The notes under the pieces are model-generated. The model saw only the letters and a program-made list of their open reading frames with translations. It was not told where the DNA came from and did not search any database. DNA of 64,000 nt from Bacteroidota bacterium (GTDB taxonomy: Bacteria > Bacteroidota > Bacteroidia > B-17B0 > Aurantibacillaceae), in NCBI GenBank assembly GCA_013297775.1, contig JAAFIL010000008.1:1-64000 (forward strand), read 5' to 3'. The number at the start of each line of letters is the position of its first letter. The stretch's first letter is position 1. Shown here piece by piece: positions 16,682-44,765 of the stretch. The translations under genes and the position numbers were made by a program.

Positions 16682-18667
16682 CTAAAATGCATGAAATAGG
16701 TTACCCAAATAATGTTTTAGGTTATACTTCTTTGTTGTGTCTAATGCTCGTTCTAAGCAAATGAATTTCTGGTTAGTATGCTTTTTGAAATGTTCTACTG
16801 TGTCCGCATCAATTGCAACGTCTAAGCAAATCAAAGTTTCTTTTATTCCATCTGTTGCTAAGAGAATTTCGTTTTTCTTAAATTGCTCTTGTTTATCGGC
16901 TTTGTAGTTTAGTTGAAAACCTTTCTTTAATAAAATCTCTGTCAATAATTCGTTGCGATTAAAAGCTGTTACCAATTGAGCTTCTTTGTCGGCAATATAT
17001 TTTTTGAGCAATACGATGTTTTCTTCTTCTGTTTTGTCCACATCGGGAGCCCATTCTACTCTTGGGAAATTTGATTTTACCAACTTGAAAACCTTAAAAC
17101 CCAAACCTTTTATAACATCTTCCTTGTGTCCGTTGGTAAACAAGTCCAGTTGTTTATTGCTCTTTTCTTCAATTATTTTTTCAACTACTCTTTTGTTGCG
17201 TTCAATGGTTATGTCGCTTATTTTTTTGTAGTTGTTCTTAAACGCCTCGGTCTTCGAGTTAGTTAACTCAGGAATTTGAACTAAGATAAACTTTCTATCT
17301 AAATTATCTTGTTTATTGAGTTCAAACACAGCTTGACCAGTTGAACCACTACCACCAAAAAAATCTAATATTAAATCGTTTTCATTGGTAACAAATTTGA
17401 TAATATGTTTTAAAAAATTAACTGACTTTGGATTATTAAAAACTTTAACGCCTCCAAATAATGCTTTTAATTCGCCAGATGTAGCTCTATTATCTTCATA
17501 GTAGTAGCTTTTTAATTTTTGAGAAACTGTATCAAGTCTTTTCTTTATTTTGGGAATGGTATTTTCGTCGTCACCCCATTGTACATCTCCTCGTTTATCA
17601 GCTTCTGTAAAAGTTTCAAAAGTCCATCTATAACCATATTCTGGCTTAGAACAAACATTTTGTGTAAGAGGATGAATGATATCGTATGTGTAACCACCAG
17701 GTTTCGTATTTGCTGAATTTCCAGGATAGTAAATGCCCTGTTCATCTACATAAGAATAGTGAGCAACGCCCGATAAATCATTGCCGTTAGTTTGAGACCT
17801 AATCCATTTCCTTAATTCAGTCTGAATGTTTTCAATATCTTCTGAATATTTGGTTTTTAGTTCATCATATTTTTCTTGAATAATTTTGCCTTTATCAGAT
17901 GGAACTTCCCAAAAATCTTGTTCGTTTTTGTCTTTTAAATAACACAACACATATTCATGTTCCGTTGCAATTTGTGTGGGATTATTATCTGTCGCTGTTT
18001 GCCAAATAATTTGACCACCAAAATTTTCTTCCCCAAATACTTCATCACATAATTTACGCAAATGATGAACTTCGTTATCATCAATGGAAATAAAAATAAC
18101 GCCATCAGGTTTTAGCATTGACCTTGCGATAAGTAAACGGCTATACAACATATTTAGCCAATTACTATGGTAGCGACCATCAGTATCAACATTCGTGTCT
18201 ATTTTAATACCATTTTCAGTAACGCCTGTTTGTTCCCAATAAGGTTTTTTATCTTCGGTAAAGTTATCGCTATATACAAAATCTTTACCTGTGTTGTATG
18301 GTGGGTCAATGTAAATGCACTTTACTTGTTCACGGTAACTGTCGCTTAAAAGTTTTAAGGCTTCTAAATTTTCGCCTTCAATTATGATGTTTTCGCTTTC
18401 TGTTGCGTTTACACTTCTGCCTTCATCAAACAATAAAGTTGCATTGCTTGGTGTATATGCATTTCTTTTTGAAGTACTTTTGCCAAACCATCGAAACTCA
18501 TAGCGTTCAGTTTCTGAAACGCTTGAAGGGTCAACCACTTTTTTAAGTTCTTCAATATTTAATTTGCCTTCGTTGGTAAATAAATCAGGGAAAAGTTTTT
18601 TTAACTGCATTAATCTTTCCTTGTTCCAGTCGTTGCTCAAAGGCATTAGGTCATTTATATTTTCCAT
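16682..18667 (-). CDS. mod: Type III restriction-modification methyltransferase subunit Mod
   Basis: A 661-residue adenine-N6 DNA methyltransferase of the beta class. The catalytic motif IV is DPPYNTG at 121-127, followed by SNWLNMLYSRL, the target-recognition region (about 230-400) and then the AdoMet-binding motif FFGGSGSTG with preceding LILD at about 430, the order expected for the beta class. Length fits Mod subunits. Its gene begins three bases after the Res stop codon, so Res and Mod are co-transcribed. Mod alone methylates one strand of an asymmetric site and with Res forms the restriction complex. The recognition sequence cannot be read from the protein. No simple-sequence repeat that would make it phase variable is seen in the gene. 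Confidence 0.93.
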   Translation of the reverse strand: MENINDLMPLSNDWNKERLMQLKKLFPDLFTNEGKLNIEELKKVVDPSSVSETERYEFRWFGKSTSKRNAYTPSNATLLFDEGRSVNATESENIIIEGENLEALKLLSDSYREQVKCIYIDPPYNTGKDFVYSDNFTEDKKPYWEQTGVTENGIKIDTNVDTDGRYHSNWLNMLYSRLLIARSMLKPDGVIFISIDDNEVHHLRKLCDEVFGEENFGGQIIWQTATDNNPTQIATEHEYVLCYLKDKNEQDFWEVPSDKGKIIQEKYDELKTKYSEDIENIQTELRKWIRSQTNGNDLSGVAHYSYVDEQGIYYPGNSANTKPGGYTYDIIHPLTQNVCSKPEYGYRWTFETFTEADKRGDVQWGDDENTIPKIKKRLDTVSQKLKSYYYEDNRATSGELKALFGGVKVFNNPKSVNFLKHIIKFVTNENDLILDFFGGSGSTGQAVFELNKQDNLDRKFILVQIPELTNSKTEAFKNNYKKISDITIERNKRVVEKIIEEKSNKQLDLFTNGHKEDVIKGLGFKVFKLVKSNFPRVEWAPDVDKTEEENIVLLKKYIADKEAQLVTAFNRNELLTEILLKKGFQLNYKADKQEQFKKNEILLATDGIKETLICLDVAIDADTVEHFKKHTNQKFICLERALDTTKKYNLKHYLGNLFHAF

Positions 18668-18670
18668 TTC

Positions 18671-21445
18671 CTATTTTTCGTTTAACGCGTTAATTGTTTT
18701 GTCAGCTTCCTTTTGAAAGTAGTGATACTCTTTTACAGGTGCTTTGTAATGCACTTCCACACCCAAAGTTTCAAAGTGTTTCATTGCACATTTTATTTTA
18801 TACACTTCGCTTTCGGTCAATGCTTTTTTATCGTTGATGTCATTTGTTCCTTTGGTTTCAATTACAAAGTAATATTCCGTTTCATCACCAGTTTTTAAAC
18901 TTTTGCGTTTCATTGCCAAACCAAAATCTGGTTCGTATTCGCCTATAGGAGTTTTGATTTTATACCAACTTGGAAGTTTGAGAAAACACACAATGTCGGG
19001 TTGATTGTCAGATGCTTTTGCAAAATTATATTCCACATTACTGTCAATAAGCATTTTGTCAAACACGCCTCTGTTTGGTGTTTCCACATAATCTGATTTG
19101 GAAACATTTCTAACGAAGTCGTTAAAGCTAAAAGGAAAATCTTCGCCGGTTAAATGATAATCTAATCCCCGAAGCATTTCGTCCAGTTCTATGTTGCGAA
19201 TAATTCCAGCAGCCGCATGAATGTATTGCGGTGGATTTTTAATGATGTGGTCTAAATTGGTAATGTTGTTTACGATTTTGAAAAGCGTTGTATAACTCAA
19301 ACCTGTGTTTTCGCTTAGTTCTTCTACCAAATCCAAAGGTGTAAATTTTGCTTTCAGTTTGTAGGTTTCAGTTCCGCCAAAACTATCTTCAATACCTTCT
19401 TCCGTTATTGTTCCAATGTTTCTGCTGCTCACTTCAGCAACATAATCTGAAATTGTTATCCTATTTATTTGTTCCGTTGCTTTAGCAATTAGATTTTCTT
19501 CATCAAAGGCAATTACATAATCTGTCTTTTTTGCTAATGATTTCCAGAAGCGTTTAAATGCTTCATCAATAGAAGTATTTGTATTGCGTTTGAAACTTAC
19601 TTCGTTTTGAGGTGTGCCTTTGTGCGTATGCGACATACCTGCACCTGCCGAAGTTGTTCCATAAACATCTTTAATTTCTTTTTGGTATTGCGTTACAAAG
19701 GTTTCGTAAGTTTCATTTGGAATTATTGTCAATTGATTTACTCGGTCTGCATCTTCTGTATTTAAAGCATCATAAACCCTTTGTCCTTGTTGGTTTACAC
19801 AAATCCGCAAACCTCTACCGATTTCTTGTCGTTTGCGAATTTCGGAGTAAGCTGTGTTGAGTGTTGCAATGTTGAAAACGTTGGGGTTGTCCCATCCAAC
19901 ACCTAAAGCAGAGTGAGAAAATACAAACTCAATAGCGTTACCAATGGTCAGCAACTCGTCTTTCTTTTGTAAAATCAGTTCGTAAATTTTCTTTTGTTCC
20001 TTTAATCCTCCTTCGTTGTCTGAAAATTCGCCTTTTGCATTTTGTGCAAAATAATAACCTTGTAATTCGTGAATGTGTTGGGCTGTCGGAACTTTCCCAT
20101 CGTTATACTCTGGATAAATAGCTTTGTATTTTTCAACGAATAGGTTTTTTATTTTGGGATCTTCGCCCATATAATTTGAAACCTTGTCAATGAAAACTAA
20201 ACTCAAAACTTTAATTCCTTTTGGTTGTAATTTTTGAGATTTTGCAAAGTGGCGATGTATAAGCCACTCCAACTGCAAAGCCCAAATATTTTCTACGTTT
20301 CCTGATGCTTGCTTTTCAAAAAGCTCAACACCATTGGTAAAAGTGATGCTCCATTTTTGCGTTTTCAAACTCTTGTTGATGCGTTCAACTTTATAGTTTA
20401 AATAACTTGGGTTATTTGTTTTCTCTCCTAAGTTGTCGCCAACTTTAAGCCAGCTTGTTTCTTCAAAAACAAACTTTCCTGCTTTCAATTTCCACGCTTT
20501 TACTTTTGCTTTCGGTTCGCTTGCTCCGTTTTGTGTTTCGGTTAATTCAATTTTTATAGTCGCTTCATCGTTTTTCTCTGTTACGGTCAGCACTTCAATT
20601 TTCTTTACCAGTCCTTGTTTGTAGCTGTCGTAAGGCGTTAAGCGATACAATAAATTCTTAACGGTTTTATGTGTTGCCGAATATCGAATTTTAAAAAGTG
20701 GGTCAAGGGTTTTGAAGATTGTTTTTTCTCTTTCGTTTTCCTTTGTGCTGTAACGTTCTTTTCTTTCGTTTGCTGAAAGTGTTTTTAAACGTTCCACCAT
20801 ATTGTCGCTGTCCATTCCTTCTTGTGGCTCATCCATAAAAATAAATGGTCGCACTTTGGCAATAGCATCAATGTAAGGAAGGTTGTTAAACAAATCTTCT
20901 CTTTGTGTTCGGTTTAAAATTCTGTCGTCAGAAGAAAAAGCACCAGTTGTCATAATCATTAATTGCGGATGCTGTTCTTCAATAAAGTTGGTTACTTTAT
21001 TTAGTTTCTTGCTGTCGTAGTCAAATGCCTGAACTTTGAAACCGTAAATGCTTTCAAGTTGCTTTTCAAAAGTTTTGAAAGTACCTAAAGTTCCTTGTCT
21101 GATAGCGATTGAAGGAACTAGTATGATGAATTTTGTAAAAGCATAATGTTTATGTAACTCGTAAATGGTCTTGATGTAAACAAGTGTTTTACCTGTTCCC
21201 GTTTCCATTTCAATACACAAATCATTGTCTGCTGAATATTTTGCTATTTCATCGTCAATGCCGTTTTCTTTTGCAATGGCTTTGATGTTGTCGGTTAATT
21301 GTTTTGCGGTAAGTTTGCAAAAATTAGAACGGATGCCTTCAATACAAGCATTGTCAAACGTGTTTTTCTCTATTCCGTCAAACACTTTAATAACCGATTG
21401 AATAGCGGTGTCCTGATATTTTAAATTCTCTAATTGTAACTCCAT
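18671..21445 (-). CDS. res: Type III restriction endonuclease subunit Res
   Basis: A 924-residue helicase-nuclease. Superfamily 2 helicase motifs are in order: Walker A ETGTGKT at 81-87, motif Ia IILVPSIAIRQG near 107, Walker B-type MDEPQ near 205, SATHK near 258 and motif VI RQEIGRGLRI near 552. A PD-(D/E)xK nuclease lies close to the C-terminus (EPDFGLAMK, then VIETKGTND at about 850-890). This is the ATP-dependent cutting subunit that works with Mod. Its ATG shares one base with the stop of the upstream XRE regulator (TAATG), which implies coupled translation. All motifs are intact, so the system is probably active. Confidence 0.93.
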   Translation of the reverse strand: MELQLENLKYQDTAIQSVIKVFDGIEKNTFDNACIEGIRSNFCKLTAKQLTDNIKAIAKENGIDDEIAKYSADNDLCIEMETGTGKTLVYIKTIYELHKHYAFTKFIILVPSIAIRQGTLGTFKTFEKQLESIYGFKVQAFDYDSKKLNKVTNFIEEQHPQLMIMTTGAFSSDDRILNRTQREDLFNNLPYIDAIAKVRPFIFMDEPQEGMDSDNMVERLKTLSANERKERYSTKENEREKTIFKTLDPLFKIRYSATHKTVKNLLYRLTPYDSYKQGLVKKIEVLTVTEKNDEATIKIELTETQNGASEPKAKVKAWKLKAGKFVFEETSWLKVGDNLGEKTNNPSYLNYKVERINKSLKTQKWSITFTNGVELFEKQASGNVENIWALQLEWLIHRHFAKSQKLQPKGIKVLSLVFIDKVSNYMGEDPKIKNLFVEKYKAIYPEYNDGKVPTAQHIHELQGYYFAQNAKGEFSDNEGGLKEQKKIYELILQKKDELLTIGNAIEFVFSHSALGVGWDNPNVFNIATLNTAYSEIRKRQEIGRGLRICVNQQGQRVYDALNTEDADRVNQLTIIPNETYETFVTQYQKEIKDVYGTTSAGAGMSHTHKGTPQNEVSFKRNTNTSIDEAFKRFWKSLAKKTDYVIAFDEENLIAKATEQINRITISDYVAEVSSRNIGTITEEGIEDSFGGTETYKLKAKFTPLDLVEELSENTGLSYTTLFKIVNNITNLDHIIKNPPQYIHAAAGIIRNIELDEMLRGLDYHLTGEDFPFSFNDFVRNVSKSDYVETPNRGVFDKMLIDSNVEYNFAKASDNQPDIVCFLKLPSWYKIKTPIGEYEPDFGLAMKRKSLKTGDETEYYFVIETKGTNDINDKKALTESEVYKIKCAMKHFETLGVEVHYKAPVKEYHYFQKEADKTINALNEK

Positions 21446-25016: not shown

Positions 25017-28000
25017 TTAGCGATTTATCAATGCTGCCGCCTCAGCACTTGATAATTTTACACCATCTCTGTAAACGGTAACAAAGGCATCGCTTATGCC
25101 CAGGGCTTTCACTTCTTCTTTTAATTTTTTAGCAAAGGTGGCACCTACAAAATTACCGATGCTATAAATGTATAGCCCATTGCTGCTTAAATTTTCGATG
25201 GGCCAAGTTTTAATCGTTAAAAATTTCGCAGCTACATCGTTAGGCACCTGACGGCTAAATGCACCAATTTGCACTTTAAAACTCAAGCCTGTATTATCGG
25301 CTTTTACACCATTTTCGGCCGTAGGCTCTGGGCTTTTGCTAACGCCATTACTAAACGGTGTAACCGAAGGTGTTGGCAAATTAGTGGTATTGGGCAAAGT
25401 AATTGCGGGCAAGGCTGAACTTAACGTACTTGTAATACTTGGTGTTACATTCCCATTCGGAAACACAATCGGATTTTCGGCTTCCATGCGGATGTTTGCC
25501 TCTGTATCTTGTTTTTGGCGGGCTTCGGCAAATGCAATACGTTTACCATTTAAGTAAGCCGTTGTAAAGGCATCCTTTATACCTAAGGTAATAACCCGAT
25601 TTTTATCGTTTATTATTTTTTCGGCTTTATTATAAATGCCCGCTGTGTAGCGATACAAGCCACTTGGCAAACGTTCGGTATAAATAGGACTTAAATTACC
25701 GAGTTGCAATTTGGTAACTTGTTTACTGTAAACGCCAATTTGAACGGTGTATAATAAATCTTTGGTTTGCTCTAGCTCTTTAGTAACCACCACTTGCTCG
25801 CTTACTACCACATTGGTTTGCAAAATAGTTTCGGGTTTAGGGATGTTCATATTGCCCGTAATACCCGCTGTTTGCGCCAGTGAGTTTTCTATGGTTTTAC
25901 CCTCGTTTTTTAGAATTTCGCTGGCTTCTGATAACGTCATTTTTTTACCATTAAAATAAACCACTACAAACGCATCGTTATACCCTAAACGGCGTAAATC
26001 GTTTTTAACACCATTGGCATTGGCGTAGTTATTAAAATTGCCAACCGTGTAACGCACGTAACCGTTAGACGTTGTTTGACCATTAACAGGGGTTAAACCC
26101 TTAAATGCTGTATTGGGCAATTGTTGTTTAAACGCACCAACTTGTACCCGAAACACTAAGCCATCGGGTATTTTTTCATCAATAGGAATGGGTTTGGTTG
26201 CCGAATACGCATTGCCATTAATTATTTCTAAACCTTCTACACGCAAGGTTCTATTTCCTGTAGGGGTATTGCTTGGGCGCGTAGTGGCATTTGTTGCATT
26301 ACGTGGCGCATTAGCGGCTGTGGCGGCATTGCCTGTATTGCGAGGATTGACAAGAGCAGTATTGGGAGGAGTAACTTGCGGAACATTAGCCGCTGTGGTG
26401 TTAGTAGCTGAAGAGGTTGTGGCAGTGGTATTTGTTCCTGAATTTTTATCGGGATTGTTAGCACTAACCGCATTAGTAGCTGTTTCATCTAACAGGGTGT
26501 TTAATTGTTTTACGGCTTCGTAACTATTTTTTGCAGCTTGTGCATATAACTTGGTGCGGTCGGTATTCGATTGGGTTTTGCTCGCTTGAATGAGCAAACG
26601 TTTCGAGTCGGTGCTTAATTGTTCAACTTTAGTTTTAGTAGTTTGTTGTTTGGCAGTTAAGGTTTTGGGTAAACGACTTTTGTTGGTTTCAATAGATAAA
26701 TTATAAGCATTGGTTAATAAGGTGAGCGCATCAAATTGTTTGTTGCTCAGTTCGTTTTGTTGTTGGGTAAACAATTCGCCATTTGCCAAGTTAGCATAGG
26801 TGTTGGCACTTTTTACCACATACGTTGGATAGGCTTGCTTTAATTCCTCTACTAAACTTTTTTGTTTTTGTAATAACTCGGTTTCTTTTTCTTCGGCATT
26901 TTCGATGGCACCTAAGCGAGCAGCGTCGTTGGTTAACGCATTGGCTTCTTGTCTTAAATTATTGGCTTCTTTGCGAAGGTTTATCAATGTTGCTTGGGTT
27001 TCTTCTAAGCGTGAGGTTTGCACTAAATTATCGCCTTTCGATTTGTTGAGTAGTTCGGTTATAGCAGCATTATATACTTCATATTGTGCGTCGTTAGTTT
27101 GTAAAGTTATTTGCGCGGCTTCTACCTTTTTAAGAATGGCTTGGTTATCCAATTGCTTGGCTTCATTTAATAAACGTTCTTTTTCTTTTCCTTTTTTAGC
27201 ATTGGCTTCTTGGCGTTTAAGCGTGGCTTGTCGGGTTATGTTTTCAATCTCTTCTTCCAATTGCAAACTACTTAATGTGTTAGTACTAACTGCACTGGTA
27301 GCTGTTGCCGTGGCTTTTGTTGCATTTAATTCATCTAATTGCGCATTCGTTAGTTTTAAATCGTTCAATGCTTTTTCGACCATGCTATTCGATGCCGGAT
27401 TTTTTAGTTCAGTAGGATTACGCTCAAAAAAAGTACTGAGGCTTTTAAACGAAGTATCTGGATTGGTAAGCGTGTTTACATCAACGGTATAAGTTGCAGT
27501 AAGCACGGGATTAGTTGTATTAGAAGTACTATTGGTAGTTGAAGAAAGCGTTGCCGATGAATTGTTACTGGTAGTGTTGCCGCTGGTAGCAAGGGTATTA
27601 CTTGGTGTAGCAGAATTTAAAGTGTTACCAGAAGTAGTGTTTGCATTAACGAGAGGTGCATTACCGTTAGAGGTTTCAACTGTTGATGTTGGTTTGGTAT
27701 TGGCGTTTCCATTATTAGCAGTTGCCTCATTTGTAACAGTATTACTCGAATTAGTAGATGAAGTATTGGTTGTGCCAGACGTTGAATTACTCGGTAGATT
27801 TGCAACAGTATTCTCTGAATTGGTAGAGGAAGTATTGGTTGTGCCAGACGTTGAATTACTCGGTGGATTTGTAACTGTATTCTCTGAATTAGTAGATGAA
27901 GTATTGGTTGTGCCAGACGTTGAATTGCTCGGTGGATTTGCAACAGTATTCTCTGAATTAGTAGAAGAAGTATTGGTTGTACCAGACGTTGAATTGTTGG

Positions 28001-31000
28001 GTGGATTTATAACTGTATTATTTGAATTGGTAGAGGAAGTATTGGTTGAGCTGGAGGTTGAATTGCTAGATGGATTTGTAGCAGTATTACTTGAATTGGT
28101 AGCTAACGCATTAGTTGTATTGGCGGTTGAGTTAGGAGCATCATTTGTAGTTGATGGAGTGCCACCGCTTGTTGTACTATTTTTTACAGTTGGTGAATTG
28201 GTGGTACTCGCTGCGTTGCTAACCACAGCCTCTGCTGCTGTTTTCAAATTGTTGGATAGGGCGTTAAACTGAACAATAGCTTCTTGTTGTTGTTTGGCGG
28301 CCTTTTCAACTAAACTCAATTTTTGAGACAGTAACTCTGTTTTATTGGCTTCGTTTAATAAAGCATTCGATGCTTTTACTGATTGTTGAACGGCCGTGTA
28401 AGCGGCTTTCAAATCAGCATTGGCGGCTAAGGTTTTCGCTTGCTTGGCAATGCTTGCATTTTGCGCGTTAAGTTCGGCATTGTTGGCTTCAACCACGTTG
28501 GCTAATACATTTACTTTTTCGCGATTTAAAGTAATGAGTTGGGTATTGATAGCCTCTATATTTTCTTTTGCTATATTAACAGATGTAGCTGTTCCATTTG
28601 CTTTTTTTAGAGGGTAATTGGGATTCGTTTTTAGCAAAATAAAAATAGCTTGCTCTTGCTTTTGAATAATTTCATTTTCTTTTTCTTCGGCATTGCTCAT
28701 GGCACCAATTTTAGCACCATAACTCACTTGCGAGTCGGCCTCTGTTCTTAACTCAAAATCTTGTTTTTTGAGTTGTTCAATTTCTATGGCTAATTTTTTT
28801 ACGGCTTCTACATCACTATTTACACTTTTGCCAGTGTTCAATAAACCCTCTATGTTGGCAGCATTGGCGGCTATTTCTCCTTGTTTTAATTTTTTGGTTT
28901 CGGCAGCAGCGTTTAAATACGTTTCGTTCGATTGTTGATCTAATGTTTTGGCCTCAGTCATTAATTTTTCTTTTTCATCTCCTTTTTTTGTTTTGGCCTC
29001 TTCGCGTTTTTGACGAGCTTGTGTCATTAAATCTTCGGCTTGTTTTATTAAATTAGGGATACTTGTTGATGTTGCACTTGCCGCTGCGGCTTGGTTTTTA
29101 ATAGTTTCATTCAATGTGTTTAAACTTTGTTTTAAATTGGTTTCTTGTTGGGTAAGCGTTTCTAATTTTTGTAAAGTTTGGGTTTGCTTTTCGATAGCCG
29201 TTGCATTGGTATAATTATTAAACGTATAAATGGCTTTTAGTTCGGTATCTAACAGTTGATTTTGAAGAACACCCGTTGCATTTACCACTTCGGCTTCGGT
29301 GTTGGCAACAAAAACTTTTTCAGAAGTGCCAGCCGTTGCCGAAATAGGAGCCAAACTTACACTTGCTACATTTGATTTAGGATTAGTAGTACTTGAAGTG
29401 CTGTTACCCGCAGTAGCCGCGCTAGTTGAAACTGAGGTACTTGATCCCAATTGTACTTTTTTAGCTTGCGCTATTAAAGTTGTATTGTCTTGTTTTTGCT
29501 TATCTAAGGCTTTTAATTCGCTCGTAATTTTTGCTTTTTCAGTAGGTGCTTTGGTTTTAGTTAAATCTAATTTATTTTGCGCAATGGCCTCGTTAATTGC
29601 GGCATTGTAGGTGTTTAATTCTTCTAAACGTAGTTGGGCTTCGTTGGGTGTTTGGGCAGGTGTAATGGCTGTGCTAAATTTTTCTTTTAAATCGGTAAAA
29701 CGAATGGCTTTACTTTCTGAAAGCGAGTTGGTATTGCTATTGACAGCGGTAAGGCTTGTGCTGGCTTCGGTATTTATAACTGGAGGTAAACTGCTAATAG
29801 GATTTGTAACCGCTTCGTTTTTGATGCGGTTAGTTAATTCTAAATCGGCTTTCACGGTTTCTAATTCGGTAGTTTGATTTTGATTTTCGGCTAAAGCATC
29901 GGTATAAACTTTTTCTTTAATGGCTAGTTCAGTTTTTAAATTGGCAATATCAGTTTCAATTTCTTTTTTCTCTTTTCGTTTGGCTTTTCCTAAGTCTTCT
30001 TCACGAATTTTAATGGTTGCTTCAAGCTCTTCTTTATTGGCTTTCGCATCGTTTACGCGTTCTACACTTTTAGCTAGATCTTTTTCTTTTTCATCAACCG
30101 TTAGTTTAATGGCATTGTAAGCCTCGTTGGCAATGGGCTTATCGTTTTCAATGGTTTCTAATTGCTTTTGAAGGGCTTCTAATTTGCTGAGGGTTTCTTT
30201 GCTGGCTTTAGGGTTGACAATATCTTCGAGCACTTTGGCGTATTGTTGATTCAGGATTCCTTCTTTTTGTTTATTGCTGGCATCGGTTTGAAGGGCTTTG
30301 GCCAATCCTTCTAGTTTAACGAGGGTGTTGCGTTTGGCAGTGGCTTCTTTTTGAATGGCGTTTGCTTTTTCAATGGCGGCTTTTTTTTCTGAGGCATCGC
30401 TTATGTTTTCGGCATTGGCTAAAGCTGTTTTAGCAGTTGCTTCTAGTTTATCGGTTTCGATGCGGGTTTGTTGAAGAAGTTCGTTGGCATCGTTAGCATC
30501 GTTTTGCAATTGAATGGCTTCTTTGTTGGCTTCTTCGGCCTCTTTTTTAGCCAAATCTATAAGTGCTTTATTGTCTATTCCTTTTTTAGAATCTGTTTTG
30601 GGTAGAGCCTTAGTTGCTGCGGCAGTTCCGTTTGTTTCAGATGTAAGGGGCGTGTTATCAACTACCGTTGGACGAGTGGTAGCCACCGAAGTGGCGGTGT
30701 TGCTGGTAGAAGTGTTGGATGGGTTTGAGACGTTAGCCAAAGTATTTGTTTCAGTTGAACTGGCGTTAGCCGTGTTGCTTACAATGGATGGGGTATTTTC
30801 TACAACGGTTGGTGTAGTAGGTTTAACAGTTCCTTTTACATCTAACTTGGCTTTTTCTTCAATGAGCTTTAGGTATTGAACGTAGCTATCGTCGCTTGGG
30901 GTTTCATCAAAGTAATTGATAATTTTTAAAAGTTTCGAGTCGTAAGAAATGGTTTGCTTAAACGGTTTAAGGCTGGTGGCAACGGGCAAGGCCACTCGGT

Positions 31001-32294
31001 CGGATTGGGTTTCTAAACCTGGGGTTTCAACAGTAAAAATAAATTGCCCACCGTTGGGTAATAGCATATTATAGTTGCCATTGTTTTCGGCCATAAAGGT
31101 ACCAACCACAGCACCATTGTCCATATTTTTAACTGTAATTTTAGAGTTTACACTTTGGGTCGGATTTTCTTTTACTACCGTTCCTTTTAAGCTAACTACA
31201 TCTAGGGGTATGCGCTCGGTGTTTACTTTTAACACATCTATTTTGTTAGGAGGTGCGTAACGTCCCGTGCTAAAGTACGCCACTTTTTCTGATTCGTCGG
31301 TTACAAATAAATAATCATCATCGGGCGAGTTAATCGGAAACTCTAAATTAATAGGTTGCGACCACGAGTCGGTTTCGGCAATGTAGGTTGATTTAAAAAT
31401 ATCGTAGCCTCCCATGCTGTTATGTCCTTTGGAAGCAAAGTAAAGTGTTCGTCCGTTGGGGTGTAAAAAAGGGAAATCTTCGTCGAAGGGGGTGTTAACT
31501 CCTTTTACAGGTTTGGGTTTAGAGAAGGTGCCATTGGGGAGTTTAATGGCATAAAATAAATCGCGTCCATTTTCGTAATTATCGCCATAACTGCTATAAA
31601 ATACTTTTTCGCCGCCTTTGGGTAAAAACACTACCGATTTATCTTTTTTCTTTTTATCAGCATTGGTTTTAAAATCTTCGGGTTTAACTAACAAGCGGCC
31701 GCCAATGCTGCTTAAATCGTAGCTGCGAAAATAATCTACTTCGTTTAATTGTTTTTTGGCAAGTACTTCTAAATCGGCAAAACTGCCCAGCAAGCGTTTG
31801 CCATTTACGCAGGCTTTTATTTCTTTATCAACTTGTAGTTTTTTTTGTTGATTGGCAGGGGCTATTTTTTTATAATCGTTATAGTATTTTAGGGCATCGT
31901 CGAATTGGTAATTGAGGTGATAGGCTTTGGCTAAAAAGAAAACGGCATCTTTGGGTGTATCGTCGGGTTTGCTAACGGCAAATTGTAAAAAGTTAAATGC
32001 TTTTTTTTTGTCGGGTTCGCAAAACAGAATGCAAACCCCCAAGCGGTAATTATATTCGGGGTCTTTAGGATAATTGGAAACTAATTGCGAGTAAAGTTTA
32101 TAGCATTTGGCGTATTCATCGTCTTCAAACAAGCGATTGGCTTCGGCTTTAAGTTCGTCAACAGTATTGAAGGCTGTGTTTTGCGCAATGAGTTTGCCGC
32201 TTATAAAAACACACCATAGTACAACAACTAATAAACGGTGTACTTTACGAGTACGTTTCTTTAAAACTGTGTAGGCTATACACCCAACATCCAT
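25017..32294 (-). CDS. Giant PorE-like TPR-PD40-CRD protein with coiled-coil middle and three SPOR-like domains
   Basis: A 2425-residue envelope protein. An N-terminal anchor or signal peptide (about 1-38, core LLVVVLWCVFISG) precedes TPR repeats (about 40-150), PD40 beta-propeller blades (about 215-350, e.g. GGEKVFYSSYG and PNGRTLYFASKGHNSMGGYD) and a carboxypeptidase-regulatory-like sheet (about 365-450). This order is that of the T9SS protein PorE, whose OmpA domain is missing. The middle is coiled coil rich in A, K, E and Q with two related blocks ending in GAxxNAEEKE, plus N/S/T-rich linkers, one made of 23-residue tandem repeats (about 1400-1515). Three SPOR-like domains (about 2030-2110, 2175-2255, 2330-2415) close the protein, each starting FxVQxGxF/Y-type. 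SPOR domains bind denuded peptidoglycan, so it may tie a surface or T9SS-related assembly to the cell wall. Confidence 0.8.
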   Translation of the reverse strand: MDVGCIAYTVLKKRTRKVHRLLVVVLWCVFISGKLIAQNTAFNTVDELKAEANRLFEDDEYAKCYKLYSQLVSNYPKDPEYNYRLGVCILFCEPDKKKAFNFLQFAVSKPDDTPKDAVFFLAKAYHLNYQFDDALKYYNDYKKIAPANQQKKLQVDKEIKACVNGKRLLGSFADLEVLAKKQLNEVDYFRSYDLSSIGGRLLVKPEDFKTNADKKKKDKSVVFLPKGGEKVFYSSYGDNYENGRDLFYAIKLPNGTFSKPKPVKGVNTPFDEDFPFLHPNGRTLYFASKGHNSMGGYDIFKSTYIAETDSWSQPINLEFPINSPDDDYLFVTDESEKVAYFSTGRYAPPNKIDVLKVNTERIPLDVVSLKGTVVKENPTQSVNSKITVKNMDNGAVVGTFMAENNGNYNMLLPNGGQFIFTVETPGLETQSDRVALPVATSLKPFKQTISYDSKLLKIINYFDETPSDDSYVQYLKLIEEKAKLDVKGTVKPTTPTVVENTPSIVSNTANASSTETNTLANVSNPSNTSTSNTATSVATTRPTVVDNTPLTSETNGTAAATKALPKTDSKKGIDNKALIDLAKKEAEEANKEAIQLQNDANDANELLQQTRIETDKLEATAKTALANAENISDASEKKAAIEKANAIQKEATAKRNTLVKLEGLAKALQTDASNKQKEGILNQQYAKVLEDIVNPKASKETLSKLEALQKQLETIENDKPIANEAYNAIKLTVDEKEKDLAKSVERVNDAKANKEELEATIKIREEDLGKAKRKEKKEIETDIANLKTELAIKEKVYTDALAENQNQTTELETVKADLELTNRIKNEAVTNPISSLPPVINTEASTSLTAVNSNTNSLSESKAIRFTDLKEKFSTAITPAQTPNEAQLRLEELNTYNAAINEAIAQNKLDLTKTKAPTEKAKITSELKALDKQKQDNTTLIAQAKKVQLGSSTSVSTSAATAGNSTSSTTNPKSNVASVSLAPISATAGTSEKVFVANTEAEVVNATGVLQNQLLDTELKAIYTFNNYTNATAIEKQTQTLQKLETLTQQETNLKQSLNTLNETIKNQAAAASATSTSIPNLIKQAEDLMTQARQKREEAKTKKGDEKEKLMTEAKTLDQQSNETYLNAAAETKKLKQGEIAANAANIEGLLNTGKSVNSDVEAVKKLAIEIEQLKKQDFELRTEADSQVSYGAKIGAMSNAEEKENEIIQKQEQAIFILLKTNPNYPLKKANGTATSVNIAKENIEAINTQLITLNREKVNVLANVVEANNAELNAQNASIAKQAKTLAANADLKAAYTAVQQSVKASNALLNEANKTELLSQKLSLVEKAAKQQQEAIVQFNALSNNLKTAAEAVVSNAASTTNSPTVKNSTTSGGTPSTTNDAPNSTANTTNALATNSSNTATNPSSNSTSSSTNTSSTNSNNTVINPPNNSTSGTTNTSSTNSENTVANPPSNSTSGTTNTSSTNSENTVTNPPSNSTSGTTNTSSTNSENTVANLPSNSTSGTTNTSSTNSSNTVTNEATANNGNANTKPTSTVETSNGNAPLVNANTTSGNTLNSATPSNTLATSGNTTSNNSSATLSSTTNSTSNTTNPVLTATYTVDVNTLTNPDTSFKSLSTFFERNPTELKNPASNSMVEKALNDLKLTNAQLDELNATKATATATSAVSTNTLSSLQLEEEIENITRQATLKRQEANAKKGKEKERLLNEAKQLDNQAILKKVEAAQITLQTNDAQYEVYNAAITELLNKSKGDNLVQTSRLEETQATLINLRKEANNLRQEANALTNDAARLGAIENAEEKETELLQKQKSLVEELKQAYPTYVVKSANTYANLANGELFTQQQNELSNKQFDALTLLTNAYNLSIETNKSRLPKTLTAKQQTTKTKVEQLSTDSKRLLIQASKTQSNTDRTKLYAQAAKNSYEAVKQLNTLLDETATNAVSANNPDKNSGTNTTATTSSATNTTAANVPQVTPPNTALVNPRNTGNAATAANAPRNATNATTRPSNTPTGNRTLRVEGLEIINGNAYSATKPIPIDEKIPDGLVFRVQVGAFKQQLPNTAFKGLTPVNGQTTSNGYVRYTVGNFNNYANANGVKNDLRRLGYNDAFVVVYFNGKKMTLSEASEILKNEGKTIENSLAQTAGITGNMNIPKPETILQTNVVVSEQVVVTKELEQTKDLLYTVQIGVYSKQVTKLQLGNLSPIYTERLPSGLYRYTAGIYNKAEKIINDKNRVITLGIKDAFTTAYLNGKRIAFAEARQKQDTEANIRMEAENPIVFPNGNVTPSITSTLSSALPAITLPNTTNLPTPSVTPFSNGVSKSPEPTAENGVKADNTGLSFKVQIGAFSRQVPNDVAAKFLTIKTWPIENLSSNGLYIYSIGNFVGATFAKKLKEEVKALGISDAFVTVYRDGVKLSSAEAAALINR
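27748..28092 (-). repeat. 69-bp in-frame tandem repeat inside the giant protein gene
   Basis: Five consecutive 69-bp units begin at 27748, 27817, 27886, 27955 and 28024, each starting GAATT(A/G)GTAGA. They encode 23-residue units of the kind NPPSNSTSGTTNTSSTNSEN. Unit differences are few between the first four and larger at the 28 kb end, where a degenerate sixth unit follows. Because the unit is a multiple of three, copy number can change without loss of frame. Confidence 0.95.
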
Positions 32295-32548: not shown

Positions 32549-33081
32549 TTATGCCGTTGTTTCGTTTGAATGCTGAGTATAAAAGTCATAGTGAACCTCA
32601 CCTAAATAGTCGTGAAAGCCCCAGCCTATGTCGCTTGTATCAGTTACCACTTTTTCAGCTCGGTCGGCAAATTTGTTAAGTAAGTTTTCTTTTTTCATCA
32701 GTTTTAACGCAGCAAGATAAGTTGTTTCTAAACTCGAATAAAAACCTTCGTCAATATCGCCAAAGTCGTTAGTGAATTTTACACCTGTCTCCACATAAAA
32801 TAGCATGAGGTCTGCAAGTAAATCAGCCGAAGGTCCGAGTTTTTTGAAGTCGCTAATGGCTTGTTTGCCGTCTTTTAGTTTATAGTTGTAGCCGCGCTTC
32901 GGATAAAACGCTTCAAAAACTTTGTTTCGGTATTTTTCAAAAAGTTCTCTCTCATTTGGAGTTACATAAAAGTCGAAGAACTCTTTAACTGATTTATTTT
33001 TTTGTACAATTCAGCAACAAGGTCAATAAGTTTATCCTTATCGAGTTGTCTAAGTTCTTTTTTTATGTCTGTTAGTCCCAT
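32549..33081 (-). pseudogene. DUF6155 family gene split by a one-base frameshift
   Basis: The ATG at 33081 opens a frame MGLTDIKKELRQLDKDKLID... that after about 28 codons runs into TAC, seven A, TAAATC and then stops about 12 codons later. In the other frame the sequence continues KSVKEFFDFYVTPNERELF and on through the frame that includes the 85-codon stretch at 32549-32806 (MLFYVETGVKFTNDFGD, ending SNETTA). One added A in the A7 run (eight A) restores a single protein of about 177 residues with the pattern I recognise as DUF6155. Function of the family is unknown. The break may be a true mutation, slippage-controlled expression, or a homopolymer sequencing error. Confidence 0.8.
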
Positions 33082-33421: not shown

Positions 33422-33583
33422 TTAGTGTCCAACGAGTTGCGTGTTGTTGTCGTCAAGTTTTTGTTTGATGTATGCTTTCAATTCGTCAAAAGTCATATTC
33501 TGTGTTTCAGAACTTATTTTGTCTCTGATGTCTCTCATCATTTTTACAGCATCAAACTGTTTTTCTTTTTTAGTCGTTTCCAT
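33422..33583 (-). CDS. 53-residue partner of the PIN toxin, putative antitoxin
   Basis: A short frame of 53 residues from the ATG at 33583, starting METTKKEKQFDAVKMMRDIR and ending NTQLVGH. It overlaps the end of the PIN gene by 14 bases in another frame, so the two are translationally linked. Composition is charged and helical (MRDIRDKISSE, then MTFDELKAYIKQKL), as in small antitoxins that wrap a PIN toxin with an amphipathic C-terminal helix. I recall similar short proteins next to PIN genes in Bacteroidota, but no named family is assigned. It lies downstream of the toxin rather than upstream, the reverse of the usual VapBC order. Confidence 0.75.
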   Translation of the reverse strand: METTKKEKQFDAVKMMRDIRDKISSETQNMTFDELKAYIKQKLDDNNTQLVGH

Positions 33584-34034
33584 AATTTACTAAGTCTTTT
33601 GGGCTTCTTATTTCAATCATTGAATATCCAAGTCGTAAATTCACAGAATTATAGCCCTTAATTCTGTCAAGGTTTACGATGTGTTTAAAGTTCCAACTTG
33701 CTAAAACATCCACTTTGTGAATAGTTGCCATAGCAATGTGACGGCAGTCTTCTGAACTCGTTTTACCAACTACTTTTTCATCAATGTAAGTGTTTGCCAG
33801 TTTAATGGCTTCCTCTGTGAGTTCAACTCTTTGGAATTTGTCTGCCGAGTATTTTAATAAATGTTCTCTAACGTATTGTGGTGCATTTATTAATTCAAGG
33901 TCAAGTAAGTCAGAAACTACAAAAATTATTTCGTTTTTATCGAGCCTTTCAAATAGCTTTATTGTTGCCTCTTTGAACTCTTCATCAAAGTAACCACCAA
34001 CAACTGAAGTATCTATGTAAACTCTTTGTTTCAT
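33570..34034 (-). CDS. PIN-domain ribonuclease, VapC-like toxin
   Basis: A 154-residue PIN-domain protein. Expected acidic active-site positions are present: the first D in YIDTSVVGGYFD (residues 6-17), an E in the DLLDLELINAP region near 47, and the D of SSEDCRHIAMAT near 98, followed by ASWNFKHIVN, which is typical of this PIN subgroup. Such enzymes cut RNA and act as toxins when free of their antitoxin. The only partner in reach is the 53-residue frame that overlaps its 3' end. There is no gene directly upstream on the same strand within 180 bases, so this module starts with the toxin. Confidence 0.85.
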   Translation of the reverse strand: MKQRVYIDTSVVGGYFDEEFKEATIKLFERLDKNEIIFVVSDLLDLELINAPQYVREHLLKYSADKFQRVELTEEAIKLANTYIDEKVVGKTSSEDCRHIAMATIHKVDVLASWNFKHIVNLDRIKGYNSVNLRLGYSMIEIRSPKDLVNYGND

Positions 34035-39446: not shown

Positions 39447-42400
39447 TTACTCTTTTATAATTTTTAAGGTACTAACTCCTTGTGCATTTTTTACACGTGC
39501 ATAATAAATGCCATTGCTTAATGCGGAAATATTTATTTCGTGTTTTGAGTCGCTAAATGAGTCGTTCATAACAACACGACCAGTTAAATCCATAATTTGT
39601 ATCGAAGCAGAACCTTGTTGGCTTAACTCGATGGTAAACACACCCGTATTTGGATTGGGATACGCATTGAATACAGCTTCTGAATTTTTAGTATCTGCTA
39701 GGTTCGTACAAATGATAACTAAAACGCCAGTAGTTCCCGTTCCCACACAGCCATTAGCTCCTGTTCCATTAACAGAATACAGGGTGGAACCACTTGGGCT
39801 AACCACAATAGAACTGCTATTAGACCCACCAGGTGTCCAGCTATAAGAAACAGCACCGTTAGCTGTTAGCGTAGCCGACGAAGGTGGACTAGAGCAAAGC
39901 GTTGCAACTGGCGAGGTTAAGATAGTTGGATTAGGATTAACGGTAACTGATGTTACTGCTGAACCTGTACAACCCGCAGTTGTTCCGATTACGGTGTAGG
40001 ATGAACTGCTCGTAGGCGCAACCACAACTGCTGATGTAGTTGCACTGTTGGCACTCCAACTGTAAGTACCAGCACCACTAGCGGTTAAAGTAACCGTAGC
40101 ACCCGAACAAACGGCTGTTGTACTGCTGTTAACAGAAAGGGTTGGTGCAACTCCAACGGTTAAGGTAACTGGGATGCGAGGACTGGTGCAACCTGTTTTG
40201 GTATAACGCATATTGCCATTGAAAATACGTGGTGAATTGGTTACACCAAAGTAAGAACCACCTTTCCCTTCGTTTATGGCTACATCCGCGTTACTAGAGT
40301 GTACATTACCTAACGTTGTTCCATTTGTGTAAGCAAACGAACCTCCGCCATTAGCGGTTACAAAAAAACCATAAGTTTGACCAGCAGGAACTGGAACAGT
40401 AAAGCTAGCTGGAACAAGCGTTAAGAAACCTGAACCCAAACCGTTTACCGTTGTTGTTAATACATTGGTCCAACCAACATTACTGGTTTCAAAACCTACA
40501 AATGTACCTGGGCGAAACCAAACCTCTACGGTGGTAACAGCAACCGAACTAATGTGTACGTCGAAACCATTTACCTCAATGTTACCTGCTGCCACTACAT
40601 CAAACATATTTCCGTTAGAACCGTTACCTCCCGCCATGGTACACGTTAAAGTACCTACTGCGGTAGATTGTGCTTCGGCAAAAAACGTTGTATTGGTTGG
40701 TGCAGAAGCGGTGTAAGTATTTCCTAAAGCTAGAGAGGTGGTTGAAGTAGGTGTTGCATACCAATTTACAGGAGCAAAAGCACTTGCGCTTAAAGTGGCA
40801 ACTGCAGTAGGGCTACAAACGGTTGCTCCAACACCTGTAATGGTTGGGTTTGTTAACGAAACGGTTACTATTCGTATAGAAGTACAAACACCGTCGTTTC
40901 CTGAACAGGTATAAATACTTGTTGCTGTTGGAGAAAATACAACCGACTGTGTTGTTGCTCCGCCCGTCCAACTGTAAGTAAGGCTGGCATTGCTACCTGT
41001 TAATGTAGTGCTACCGCCCGAACAAACATTAATATTACCTAAAACATTAAATATAGGATTGCTGGTTGCGGTTAACAAAGCAATATTATTGAATGTATTG
41101 GCATCGCCAGGTAAAGCTGTAGTTGCTGTAAAGGTATAAATACCCGAGAACGTCATGTTCAGCGTTCCTACTGTAAATACTGCCGTTGCACCAATAGGAA
41201 TAGAAGGCGCATAAGTGCCACTAACAGTTTGGGTTACGGCACCGCCAACAATAACATTTACTGGTATATTGCTAATAGCTGCTGTACCAAAGTTACGAAT
41301 GGTAACTACAACGGGTTCGGCATTAGTGTAACATACTAGAGGATTAGGATTAGGCGCATTTACCGCAGTAACACCAGCATCGGTGGCTAAGGCATTGGCT
41401 AAATTAATATTATCTAAATGAAAATCATAAGATTCTATATCATCAACAGGACCGTCGCTAGCTAGGAAAGCTACAATAATTTCTTGACCTGCAAAAGCAC
41501 CAAGTGGCACAATGTAATTGCTAAAAGTGTTAGAGGTGCTAACAGTGTTAGCAGCACTTAACGTAAATACAGGTGTATAAGATAAACCACAATCGGTAGA
41601 AACCATCAAGCGCACCATGTCATCGCTTCCCATGTTGTTAGAAGTAAGAATGCTACCAGGACCCGTTAACGCCACATCGAACGCTATTTGCGTGCTAGGT
41701 GTAACTAACGTACGTGGGCCTATAATCCAATCGTTACGAGTAGTTCCTAACAAGTTAATACGTGCTGTAATATTTCCTACACCATTCAAATTGGCTTGGC
41801 TTAACCAACTAGATGTTGTACCTGATGGTACTAAAACACCTTGTGCCTCTGTCCAACCAGGTTGAGCCGCTGGTAAGTTGGCTCCAGTAAAGCCAGTAAA
41901 TGGATTAGATATAGGTAAACTCACCAATGGATTAATAACTCGAACAATAGTGGTGGTATCGTTTAACGGATTACCATCACCAACTAGCGAAGAGAACCCT
42001 TTAAAAGTATAAGTGCCGCCAAACGTTAAATTAACTGAACCTACTACAACAGCTATGGTTGAAGCTGGTGCAACAGGACCTGCAATAGTAGTTGTTAAAG
42101 TGGTGGTAACAGGGCCCGAAACAATAACAGATACGTTTACATTCGACTGTGGAGCTGTTCCAAAGTTTCGGAAGGTAACGGTTACTGGGTTTGATGCTGA
42201 ATAACACCCCGAGTTTGCTGGAGTTGAAAACGCATTGACCCCCACATCACTGGCAACAACATTGTTGATATTGATGTTATCTAAATGTATATCGTAAGAT
42301 TCAATATCATCTACTAAACCATCAGTAGCTAAAAAAGCTACAATCAATTCTTGATTAGCGTAGGCTGCTAAAGGCACTACAAAATTAGAGAAATTGGTAC

Positions 42401-44765
42401 TTAAACTATTGGTAGCACTTACTGTAAAAATAGGAACGTAAGTGGCGCCACAGTCGGTAGAAACCATTACCAGTAATTGATCATCGCTACCCATGTTAGA
42501 ACCTGAAGTTAATGCCGCCACAGCAGTAATGGCTGCATCAAACGTAACTTGTGTACTGGCGGTTGCTAAAATTTTTGGACCTACAATCCACTCGCGGCGA
42601 GCGTTACCAAATAAGTTAACACGGGCAGTAATATTCCCAGCCACTCCTAAGCCAGTTTGTGATAACCAGCTAGAGGTTGTTCCCGATGGGAAACTTGCAC
42701 CAGCTGCTTCTAACCAACCATTTGGGGTAATTAAATTTAAATTAGCTCCTGTAAAGCCTGTAAAACCTTGGAAAATTGGGATAGCTGTTTGCGCAACATT
42801 AGTTCGAACTACGGTAATACCATTATTAATAGTATTATTATCTAAAGGTGTTGTCATAGATGCCGTTGCGTTAATGCTATAGGTTCCGAAAGCTGACATA
42901 TTTAATGTTGAAGCCAATGTGTATTGAACATTACTCGATGGCGGAAAACCTCCCCCAGGCACTACATAATTTGAGGTAATAGTTTGTGAGTTAGCACCAC
43001 TTAAAATAGCGGTAACCGGAATATTAACACCTGCGGCTAATGTATTAATCCCAAAATTACGAATGGTAACTACAACTGGTGATGTTGCGCTTAAACATTG
43101 CAGTACGGCTGGAGCTGTAATGGCAATTACCCCCACATCATTTGAAACACCAGCTAATCCATCAAACTCATAAGCCCCCATATCTGGGTTAGTGTTGGCA
43201 TTAATTCCTGCAGCAGGGCGGTTTACATTGTTATAATCTTTATTAGGTAACCCCAGACTTGGAATAATAACGGCACCACTTTCGATAGGTGTTACAGCAT
43301 TGGCCGCAAATTGAAGGTTTGTATTAGATGGAAATGGTGCTAAAGCATTCACAAGCGGTACAGAATTGATGTCGTTTGTAGGATTACCTACTTGAGATAC
43401 CGCTTGCCAAGGTGCCAAAGTTTGATATTCGAATGTACCCGAGGTAGTCCCTAGTTTACCAACAAAATAATCGGTTGTATTGGCAGGAGAAACCATGTAA
43501 GCATTATTATTAAAAGTCATATTCGCAAAATTATAGGCGGCTGGCATCCAAACGGCCATAAAACGCTTGGTGGTAACATTAGCGGCCGAAGAGGTCATTT
43601 GGTTATTGAAAACATTATTTCGAACATCGCCCGTTACGCCAACAGCTGTAACTAAAAAACAAGCGCTAATAGCATTAGTGTTGGCAGTAGGTGTTGGCAT
43701 ATCACCAAATAAATTAACACTATTGTAATAAACTTTGTAACCTGTACCCGCTGTTAAACGGATACCAAAGGCATTAAATGTAGTAGAAAAAACATAATTA
43801 CTACCGATAATCTCGTAAATAACGTTATTAACAATGGCACCCCAACCGTTAGTAGAAGTAGAAAAAATGCTATATATTTTGTTAGTAGAAATAAGCATGT
43901 TGGTACTAGTTGTACCATTAATTTCGATACCTGCATTGCTTGCAGATGATGATAACCTTAAATTAGAAATATCATTTCCGGATACAGTTCCGTTAACAAC
44001 TGAGGAAAGATTAATCCCTCTAAAATGAACATACTCGGCTGGTGTAGGCGAACCTATAATATTGTTCGTGATTAGCGCATTATCACCCAAGTTTGCAGCG
44101 GTATTAGCAGCATAAATAGCTTGGTAACTGCGTCTAAATTCATTATTAGAGATAAATAAGTTATCATAATTATCGCCAGTTCCAGTAGTGGTGATGTTTG
44201 CGGCATTGGTACCTGCATAAAAACAAAACGAAGAGGTTAAAGGTGCAGCCGTGTTGGCACCATCGGAGTTACCCCAAAGTTTACAATTGGTTAAACTAAA
44301 ACTGGTTATACCCAAACCTAGAGTAGTTCTGCCTATCAAACGAACGCAGGCAGTATTGATTAAAGTAGTTGCCCCAGTGTGAATGATAGATAAATCGCGA
44401 CTTACTGAACCACCAGCAATATCACCATTAATACTTACGTTATCGGCACCGTCGAATTCTAAAATACCTCGCCCAGTTACCATGTTACCACTAATAGTAG
44501 CTGTAACCGTAGGACGTAGAATTATTGAGGTATAATTGGCCAAACCTTGCCCACTAGCGGCCAAGGGAGTAGGAGTAGTTGGTTCTGTAGTGCTACCAGT
44601 AATATCTATGGTTATTGCACCTGTGTGAACACCACTATTAATGGCTAAAAACGCACTATTTACGGTTGAATAGGTGGCCGAAGCCCCACCAGTAACATTA
44701 ACCTGAGCATGAAGCGAAACTCCTATCGCTAGTGCTGAAACTGTTAAGAATAAATTTTTAATCAT
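39447..44765 (-). CDS. 1772-residue T9SS-secreted protein with internal duplication
   Basis: Signal peptide (about 1-20, LFLTVSALAIGVSLHAQ), then a beta-helix-like region (about 25-540) with repeated N-rich turns and motifs such as GRGILEFDGADNVSING. A CARDB-like region follows, with two long related units of about 300 residues (about 665-935 and 940-1240), each with PSGTTSSWLSQ, an N-I-T-A-R segment, NMGSDD, MVSTDCG and VDDIESYD-HLDNIN. These resemble jelly-roll modules. Ig-like modules (SYSWTGGATTQS types) follow, and a T9SS type A sorting domain ends the protein (FNAYPNPNTG, MDLTGRVVMND, terminal KIIKE). It is expected on the cell surface or in the medium. No enzymatic motif is seen; adhesion or matrix formation is inferred. 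Confidence 0.83.
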   Translation of the reverse strand: MIKNLFLTVSALAIGVSLHAQVNVTGGASATYSTVNSAFLAINSGVHTGAITIDITGSTTEPTTPTPLAASGQGLANYTSIILRPTVTATISGNMVTGRGILEFDGADNVSINGDIAGGSVSRDLSIIHTGATTLINTACVRLIGRTTLGLGITSFSLTNCKLWGNSDGANTAAPLTSSFCFYAGTNAANITTTGTGDNYDNLFISNNEFRRSYQAIYAANTAANLGDNALITNNIIGSPTPAEYVHFRGINLSSVVNGTVSGNDISNLRLSSSASNAGIEINGTTSTNMLISTNKIYSIFSTSTNGWGAIVNNVIYEIIGSNYVFSTTFNAFGIRLTAGTGYKVYYNSVNLFGDMPTPTANTNAISACFLVTAVGVTGDVRNNVFNNQMTSSAANVTTKRFMAVWMPAAYNFANMTFNNNAYMVSPANTTDYFVGKLGTTSGTFEYQTLAPWQAVSQVGNPTNDINSVPLVNALAPFPSNTNLQFAANAVTPIESGAVIIPSLGLPNKDYNNVNRPAAGINANTNPDMGAYEFDGLAGVSNDVGVIAITAPAVLQCLSATSPVVVTIRNFGINTLAAGVNIPVTAILSGANSQTITSNYVVPGGGFPPSSNVQYTLASTLNMSAFGTYSINATASMTTPLDNNTINNGITVVRTNVAQTAIPIFQGFTGFTGANLNLITPNGWLEAAGASFPSGTTSSWLSQTGLGVAGNITARVNLFGNARREWIVGPKILATASTQVTFDAAITAVAALTSGSNMGSDDQLLVMVSTDCGATYVPIFTVSATNSLSTNFSNFVVPLAAYANQELIVAFLATDGLVDDIESYDIHLDNININNVVASDVGVNAFSTPANSGCYSASNPVTVTFRNFGTAPQSNVNVSVIVSGPVTTTLTTTIAGPVAPASTIAVVVGSVNLTFGGTYTFKGFSSLVGDGNPLNDTTTIVRVINPLVSLPISNPFTGFTGANLPAAQPGWTEAQGVLVPSGTTSSWLSQANLNGVGNITARINLLGTTRNDWIIGPRTLVTPSTQIAFDVALTGPGSILTSNNMGSDDMVRLMVSTDCGLSYTPVFTLSAANTVSTSNTFSNYIVPLGAFAGQEIIVAFLASDGPVDDIESYDFHLDNINLANALATDAGVTAVNAPNPNPLVCYTNAEPVVVTIRNFGTAAISNIPVNVIVGGAVTQTVSGTYAPSIPIGATAVFTVGTLNMTFSGIYTFTATTALPGDANTFNNIALLTATSNPIFNVLGNINVCSGGSTTLTGSNASLTYSWTGGATTQSVVFSPTATSIYTCSGNDGVCTSIRIVTVSLTNPTITGVGATVCSPTAVATLSASAFAPVNWYATPTSTTSLALGNTYTASAPTNTTFFAEAQSTAVGTLTCTMAGGNGSNGNMFDVVAAGNIEVNGFDVHISSVAVTTVEVWFRPGTFVGFETSNVGWTNVLTTTVNGLGSGFLTLVPASFTVPVPAGQTYGFFVTANGGGSFAYTNGTTLGNVHSSNADVAINEGKGGSYFGVTNSPRIFNGNMRYTKTGCTSPRIPVTLTVGVAPTLSVNSSTTAVCSGATVTLTASGAGTYSWSANSATTSAVVVAPTSSSSYTVIGTTAGCTGSAVTSVTVNPNPTILTSPVATLCSSPPSSATLTANGAVSYSWTPGGSNSSSIVVSPSGSTLYSVNGTGANGCVGTGTTGVLVIICTNLADTKNSEAVFNAYPNPNTGVFTIELSQQGSASIQIMDLTGRVVMNDSFSDSKHEINISALSNGIYYARVKNAQGVSTLKIIKE

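Follow-up and report, generated by a model that had tools for sequence, protein, structure and literature searches.

SPOR domains bind glycan strands that have been stripped of their stem peptides, and amidases make such strands mainly at the division site. RlpA holds this glycan by Gln270 together with a basic patch, the equivalent residues in FtsN being Q251 and R285 (PMC6895207). A second point of reference is the T9SS protein PorE (PG1058) of Porphyromonas gingivalis, in which TPR, PD40 propeller and CRD-like sandwich follow one another in that order ahead of a wall-binding OmpA domain, and whose propeller comprises 269 residues in five blades (PMC7192894). In the window, by which we mean the whole 64,000-nucleotide stretch analysed (contig JAAFIL010000008.1, positions 1 to 64,000, from a Bacteroidota bacterium), one gene encodes a protein, here called the giant, that joins a head of this type, with a shortened propeller and a transthyretin/CRD-like sandwich, to about 1,500 variable residues and three SPOR domains (Table 1). 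The giant is real and strongly conserved in certain Bacteroidota, and the protein class appears to be undescribed so far: no description of PorE-like heads with SPOR tails was found in the open-access literature, a scope outside which most subscription journals lie.

Table 1. Features of the gene for the giant, with positions in the window
Feature	Position	Strand	Basis
Whole gene, 2425 aa	25017..32294	-	ORF; conserved in relatives
N-terminal hydrophobic signal-peptide-like region, residues 1-37, without lipobox	32184..32294	-	sequence by eye; lipobox pattern test
TPR domain, residues 45-168	31791..32162	-	AlphaFold2 model; CHIP TPR Z 15.6
Short PD40 beta-propeller, residues 174-362	31209..31775	-	Pfam PD40; model; TolB Z 11.5
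CRD/transthyretin-like beta sandwich, residues 366-460	30915..31199	-	model; transthyretin Z about 10
Disordered linker, residues 489-571	30582..30830	-	pLDDT under 50; poorly conserved
First long-helix region, residues 575-826	29817..30572	-	model
Variable middle, residues 827-1604; T/N/S-rich linkers and probable helices	27483..29816	-	sequence
69-bp tandem array within linker	27729..28102	-	repeat detection
Last helical bundle, residues 1616-1944	26463..27449	-	model
SPOR1, residues 2043-2126; Gln2051 and Arg2081 conserved	25917..26168	-	family profile, CwlC match, model, alignment
SPOR2, residues 2177-2261; Gln2185 and Arg2215 conserved	25512..25766	-	family profile, model, alignment
SPOR3, residues 2335-2421; Gln2342 kept, Ile2376 in place of Arg	25032..25292	-	family profile, model, alignment, structure alignment

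Domain architecture of the giant

The original prediction placed TPR, PD40 propeller and CRD in the order known from PorE, and this is borne out by Pfam, by the AlphaFold2 model and by structural comparison. Pfam recognizes PD40 at residues 266-300 above its cut-off (E 5.7e-7), TPR_14 weakly at 46-86, and SPOR at 2063-2111 with 19.9 bits, just under the cut-off of 21; no OmpA match was found in Pfam for this protein, whose C-terminus carries the three SPOR domains instead, and NCBIfam returned no family. Structure prediction of the head, as had been proposed, yielded a confident model (residues 38-840, mean pLDDT 86.5) in which the TPR, a propeller of ~185 residues in roughly four blades and the sandwich are followed by long helices. 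VIA-align found the three domains to resemble CHIP, TolB and transthyretin-like folds, respectively, with the scores given in Table 1; its rows for the helical parts showed common helical arrangements only, and with the N-terminal model as query Foldseek gave nothing that passed E 0.001. The alignments behind this model and the C-terminal one held 68 and 67 family members.

A coiled-coil rod of about 1500 residues had been proposed to follow the head. The long middle is there, but it is not a single rod: several helical segments or bundles alternate with disordered T/N/S-rich linkers, one of which contains the 5.4 copies of the 69-bp tandem unit. Because the middle ranges from 955 to 1,666 residues among relatives (best 80 of 444), it is unlikely to be a ruler of fixed length spanning the periplasm, as had also been considered; helical bundles with flexible linkers between them suggest reach and play in its place.

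The SPOR fold of the three C-terminal domains, initially described as SPOR-like, has been upheld by profile, model and structure alignments alike. The C-terminal model (residues 1605-2425, mean pLDDT 83.9, pTM 0.43) contains a helical bundle and three SPOR folds; how domains are placed relative to one another in the models is unreliable. A family SPOR profile finds the three domains at 110, 107 and 93 bits, a match that is not independent since the profile included the window's own domains, while independent support comes from the SPOR1 profile, which matches the SPOR domain of CwlC in the PDB (E 8.5e-5). The same CwlC domain is the top Foldseek row for the C-terminal model (probability 1.00, E 0.026), and the SPOR3 part of that model aligns both with CwlC (Z 7.4, 2.3 A, 73 residues) and with the RlpA SPOR domain solved with denuded glycan (6i09; Z 6.9, 2.7 A, 72 residues). 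The glycan-contact glutamine equivalent to RlpA Q270 and FtsN Q251 is present in 68 of 68 family members in both SPOR1 and SPOR2, and the arginine equivalent to FtsN R285 in 67 and 66 of them, respectively. SPOR3 has the glutamine in 47 of the 68 and the arginine in none, and is probably a weak or non-binding copy.

Relatives, paralogues and genomic surroundings

A scan of 84,980 species, each represented by one genome, yielded candidates that included 444 relatives; the analysis went on with the best 80, which biases it to close relatives. In all 80 of these, read as untruncated members of 1,774-2,584 aa, a PorE-type head and a SPOR tail lie in one ORF; the same 80 have three SPOR matches in 69 cases, two in 10 and four in one, and six carry a lipobox pattern. 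Named bearers include Brumimicrobium, Fluviicola and Vicingaceae, the majority being MAGs with loose names. Within the genus, 31 of 36 other genomes have a strong orthologue, four of the five without a strong match being only 60-86% complete, and a long match occurs in eight other families of the class. The family is patchy, because a phylum sample of 395 genomes gave a long-ORF match only in the window's own genome and one other. In the family alignment the head and SPOR domains are conserved and the middle drifts. The nearest relative has a head that is 88-93% identical, SPOR1 and SPOR2 domains with 85-92% identity and a SPOR3 with 75%; those parts of the middle that were compared reach 30-59%. 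Against that relative, most parts come close to saturation at synonymous sites, and in the head and SPOR domains replacement changes are far rarer than synonymous ones.

It had been thought that the rod and SPOR domains might replace the OmpA domain of PorE, and that bearers of the giant might have lost an OmpA-type PorE; neither idea finds support here. The genome encodes about 20 other proteins with similar heads. Among those scanned, a clear OmpA domain accompanies PD40 in ten, in most of which TPRs can be detected as well, and one more shows OmpA weakly. When four OmpA paralogues (L100, L103, L105 and L110) were compared with the solved structure of PorE OmpA (6TOP), L100 matched at 112 bits (next distinct chain, 73) and L105 at 66 bits, and L110 gave nothing at 1e-20; L103, chosen first as PorE candidate for its lipobox, was rejected on a weak match of 35 bits. 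A PorE-type protein therefore exists in this genome, L100 having an OmpA domain of PorE grade. Among 39 other bearers of the giant, 36 also have an orthologue of L100; by the threshold applied, G010, G040 and G047 are the exceptions. The giant is probably not a substitute for PorE. Whether it also stands apart from such a protein, which had been named as grounds for abandoning the original prediction, is answered in part: in a tree of giants and the genome's own paralogues, built without P. gingivalis PorE, the giants form one clade with support of 100/100, yet their grouping with L100 is not rejected (p-AU 0.206). Nearest to the clade, with modest support (85/84), are two tail-less paralogues. 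A single origin of SPOR tails is likewise neither established nor rejected (p-AU 0.137), and the SPOR tail on a PorE-like head is not unique to the giant, because the short paralogues L097, L102 and L104 (690, 704 and 674 aa) also end in one SPOR domain. Another instance of SPOR where OmpA is usual is an 819-aa protein of the same genome (L115:1997-4456), an apparent outer-membrane barrel with an Asp-rich stretch and three SPOR matches.

SprA, the translocon protein of the T9SS, is encoded in this genome, and a search of 60 genomes found it in 59, irrespective of whether they have the giant; the co-occurrence of the two is accordingly uninformative, and because genomes without the giant also have SprA, the giant is not a core part of the T9SS. 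An Amidase_3 enzyme encoded in the genome could produce the denuded-glycan ligand, and ~1 kb from its gene lies a small SPOR ORF of 138 aa (region G000:C96:19068-20846). No division or T9SS gene was found among the recurrent neighbours of the giant, which in other families resemble ClpS and an M48 peptidase (both by eye) and PlsY, together with an uncharacterised 1505-aa protein without a Pfam match (L092:9689-14206). The family of this last protein lies beside the giant in 30 loci and was rejected as a specific partner, being present in 58 of 60 genomes. Relatives of a 206-aa protein with a sub-threshold C92 papain-like match (L083:13271-13891) are directly downstream of the giant in seven loci. 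Elsewhere in the window, all on the minus strand, are two short in-line ORFs of 39 and 85 aa that are possibly the remnant of a frameshifted gene (32549-33081), a PIN-like ORF of 154 aa that falls narrowly short of the Pfam cut-off and overlaps a 53-aa ORF in the manner of a toxin-antitoxin pair (33422-34034), a protein of 1772 aa whose C-terminus looks by eye like a T9SS sorting domain (39447-44765), and adjacent genes that by eye resemble the Mod and Res pair of a Type III restriction-modification system (16682-21445).

Possible roles at the cell wall

On balance we think it probable that the giant is soluble, resides in the periplasm and acts there as a tether to peptidoglycan that is denuded, at the septum or elsewhere, with a head that docks a protein partner. 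Its signal-peptide-like start would take it to the periplasm; the likeliest docking partner of the TPR/propeller/CRD head would be a complex of the outer membrane or of T9SS type, in line with what has been proposed for PorE; the middle, being long, helical and flexible, would provide reach across the periplasm; and SPOR1 and SPOR2 are predicted to bind amidase-stripped glycan, mainly at the division site. A tether to septal peptidoglycan can fairly be deduced from the genuine SPOR folds and from the retention, in SPOR1 and SPOR2, of the residues that touch denuded glycan. Should this reading be correct, the SPOR tail alone should set the location of the protein, and the surface machines of Bacteroidota would be joined to the denuded-glycan signal of division sites, two fields so far apart. 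More tentatively, the giant could represent a previously undescribed class of tethers, which would bring a surface or secretion machine of Bacteroidota to the division site by way of septal peptidoglycan held by SPOR domains. The position of that machine would then track the cell cycle, and SPOR and OmpA tails would be interchangeable wall anchors on a single family of PorE-like heads.

Alternatively, the giant might serve the T9SS as an accessory component and second scaffold of the PorE type, fastening the translocon or motor ring to the wall at any site of denuded glycan, so that its targeting to septa would be incidental. The PorE-type head and the presence of SprA in all near-complete bearers are in keeping with this, but it seems rather unlikely to us given that the majority of sampled T9SS genomes do without the giant, that L100 already supplies a PorE-type protein, and that a PorE-type head does not indicate T9SS function in a genome with about 20 further similar heads. 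We give similarly little credence to a general envelope stabiliser without a secretion role, which in the manner of Tol-Pal would keep outer membrane and wall close together, either where the cell constricts or around its whole circumference: the giant has no membrane anchor of its own and would require a partner, and propeller folds are common to many unrelated functions, even if TolB is the closest of the solved structures to this propeller, the tail is predicted to bind the wall, and the same genome encodes the barrel-like protein with SPOR domains. The low-complexity middle and tandem array might suggest that faulty assembly or gene calling created the architecture, or that it was read by chance into low-complexity sequence. 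This is exceedingly improbable and already refuted by conservation, the same two-ended ORF recurring in many assemblies and replacement changes in the head and SPOR domains being so outnumbered by synonymous ones.

Comparison with known systems

Like PorE, the giant begins with TPR, propeller and sandwich and ends in a tail of a wall-binding type, but it differs in having no OmpA domain, a propeller that is shorter in the model, ~1,500 extra residues, three SPOR domains and, in the tree, a clade separate from the OmpA paralogues of its own genome; it also has no lipobox, and F. johnsoniae PorE homologues are likewise without a lipoprotein signal (PMC7192894). The short paralogues L097, L102 and L104 share with it a propeller-type front and a SPOR end with the Gln...Arg pattern (by eye), whereas they have only the one SPOR domain, no long middle and a longer propeller region (~277 residues in L097, by eye). 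TolB shares its propeller fold with the giant at 11% identity (Z 11.5, 129 residues), and lacks TPR, long middle and SPOR domains. Finally, FtsN, DamX, DedD, RlpA and CwlC, which unlike the giant lack a TPR/propeller head and are membrane-anchored proteins, lipoproteins or enzymes of the wall, have in common with it the SPOR fold, the conserved glutamine and a basic residue at the glycan site.
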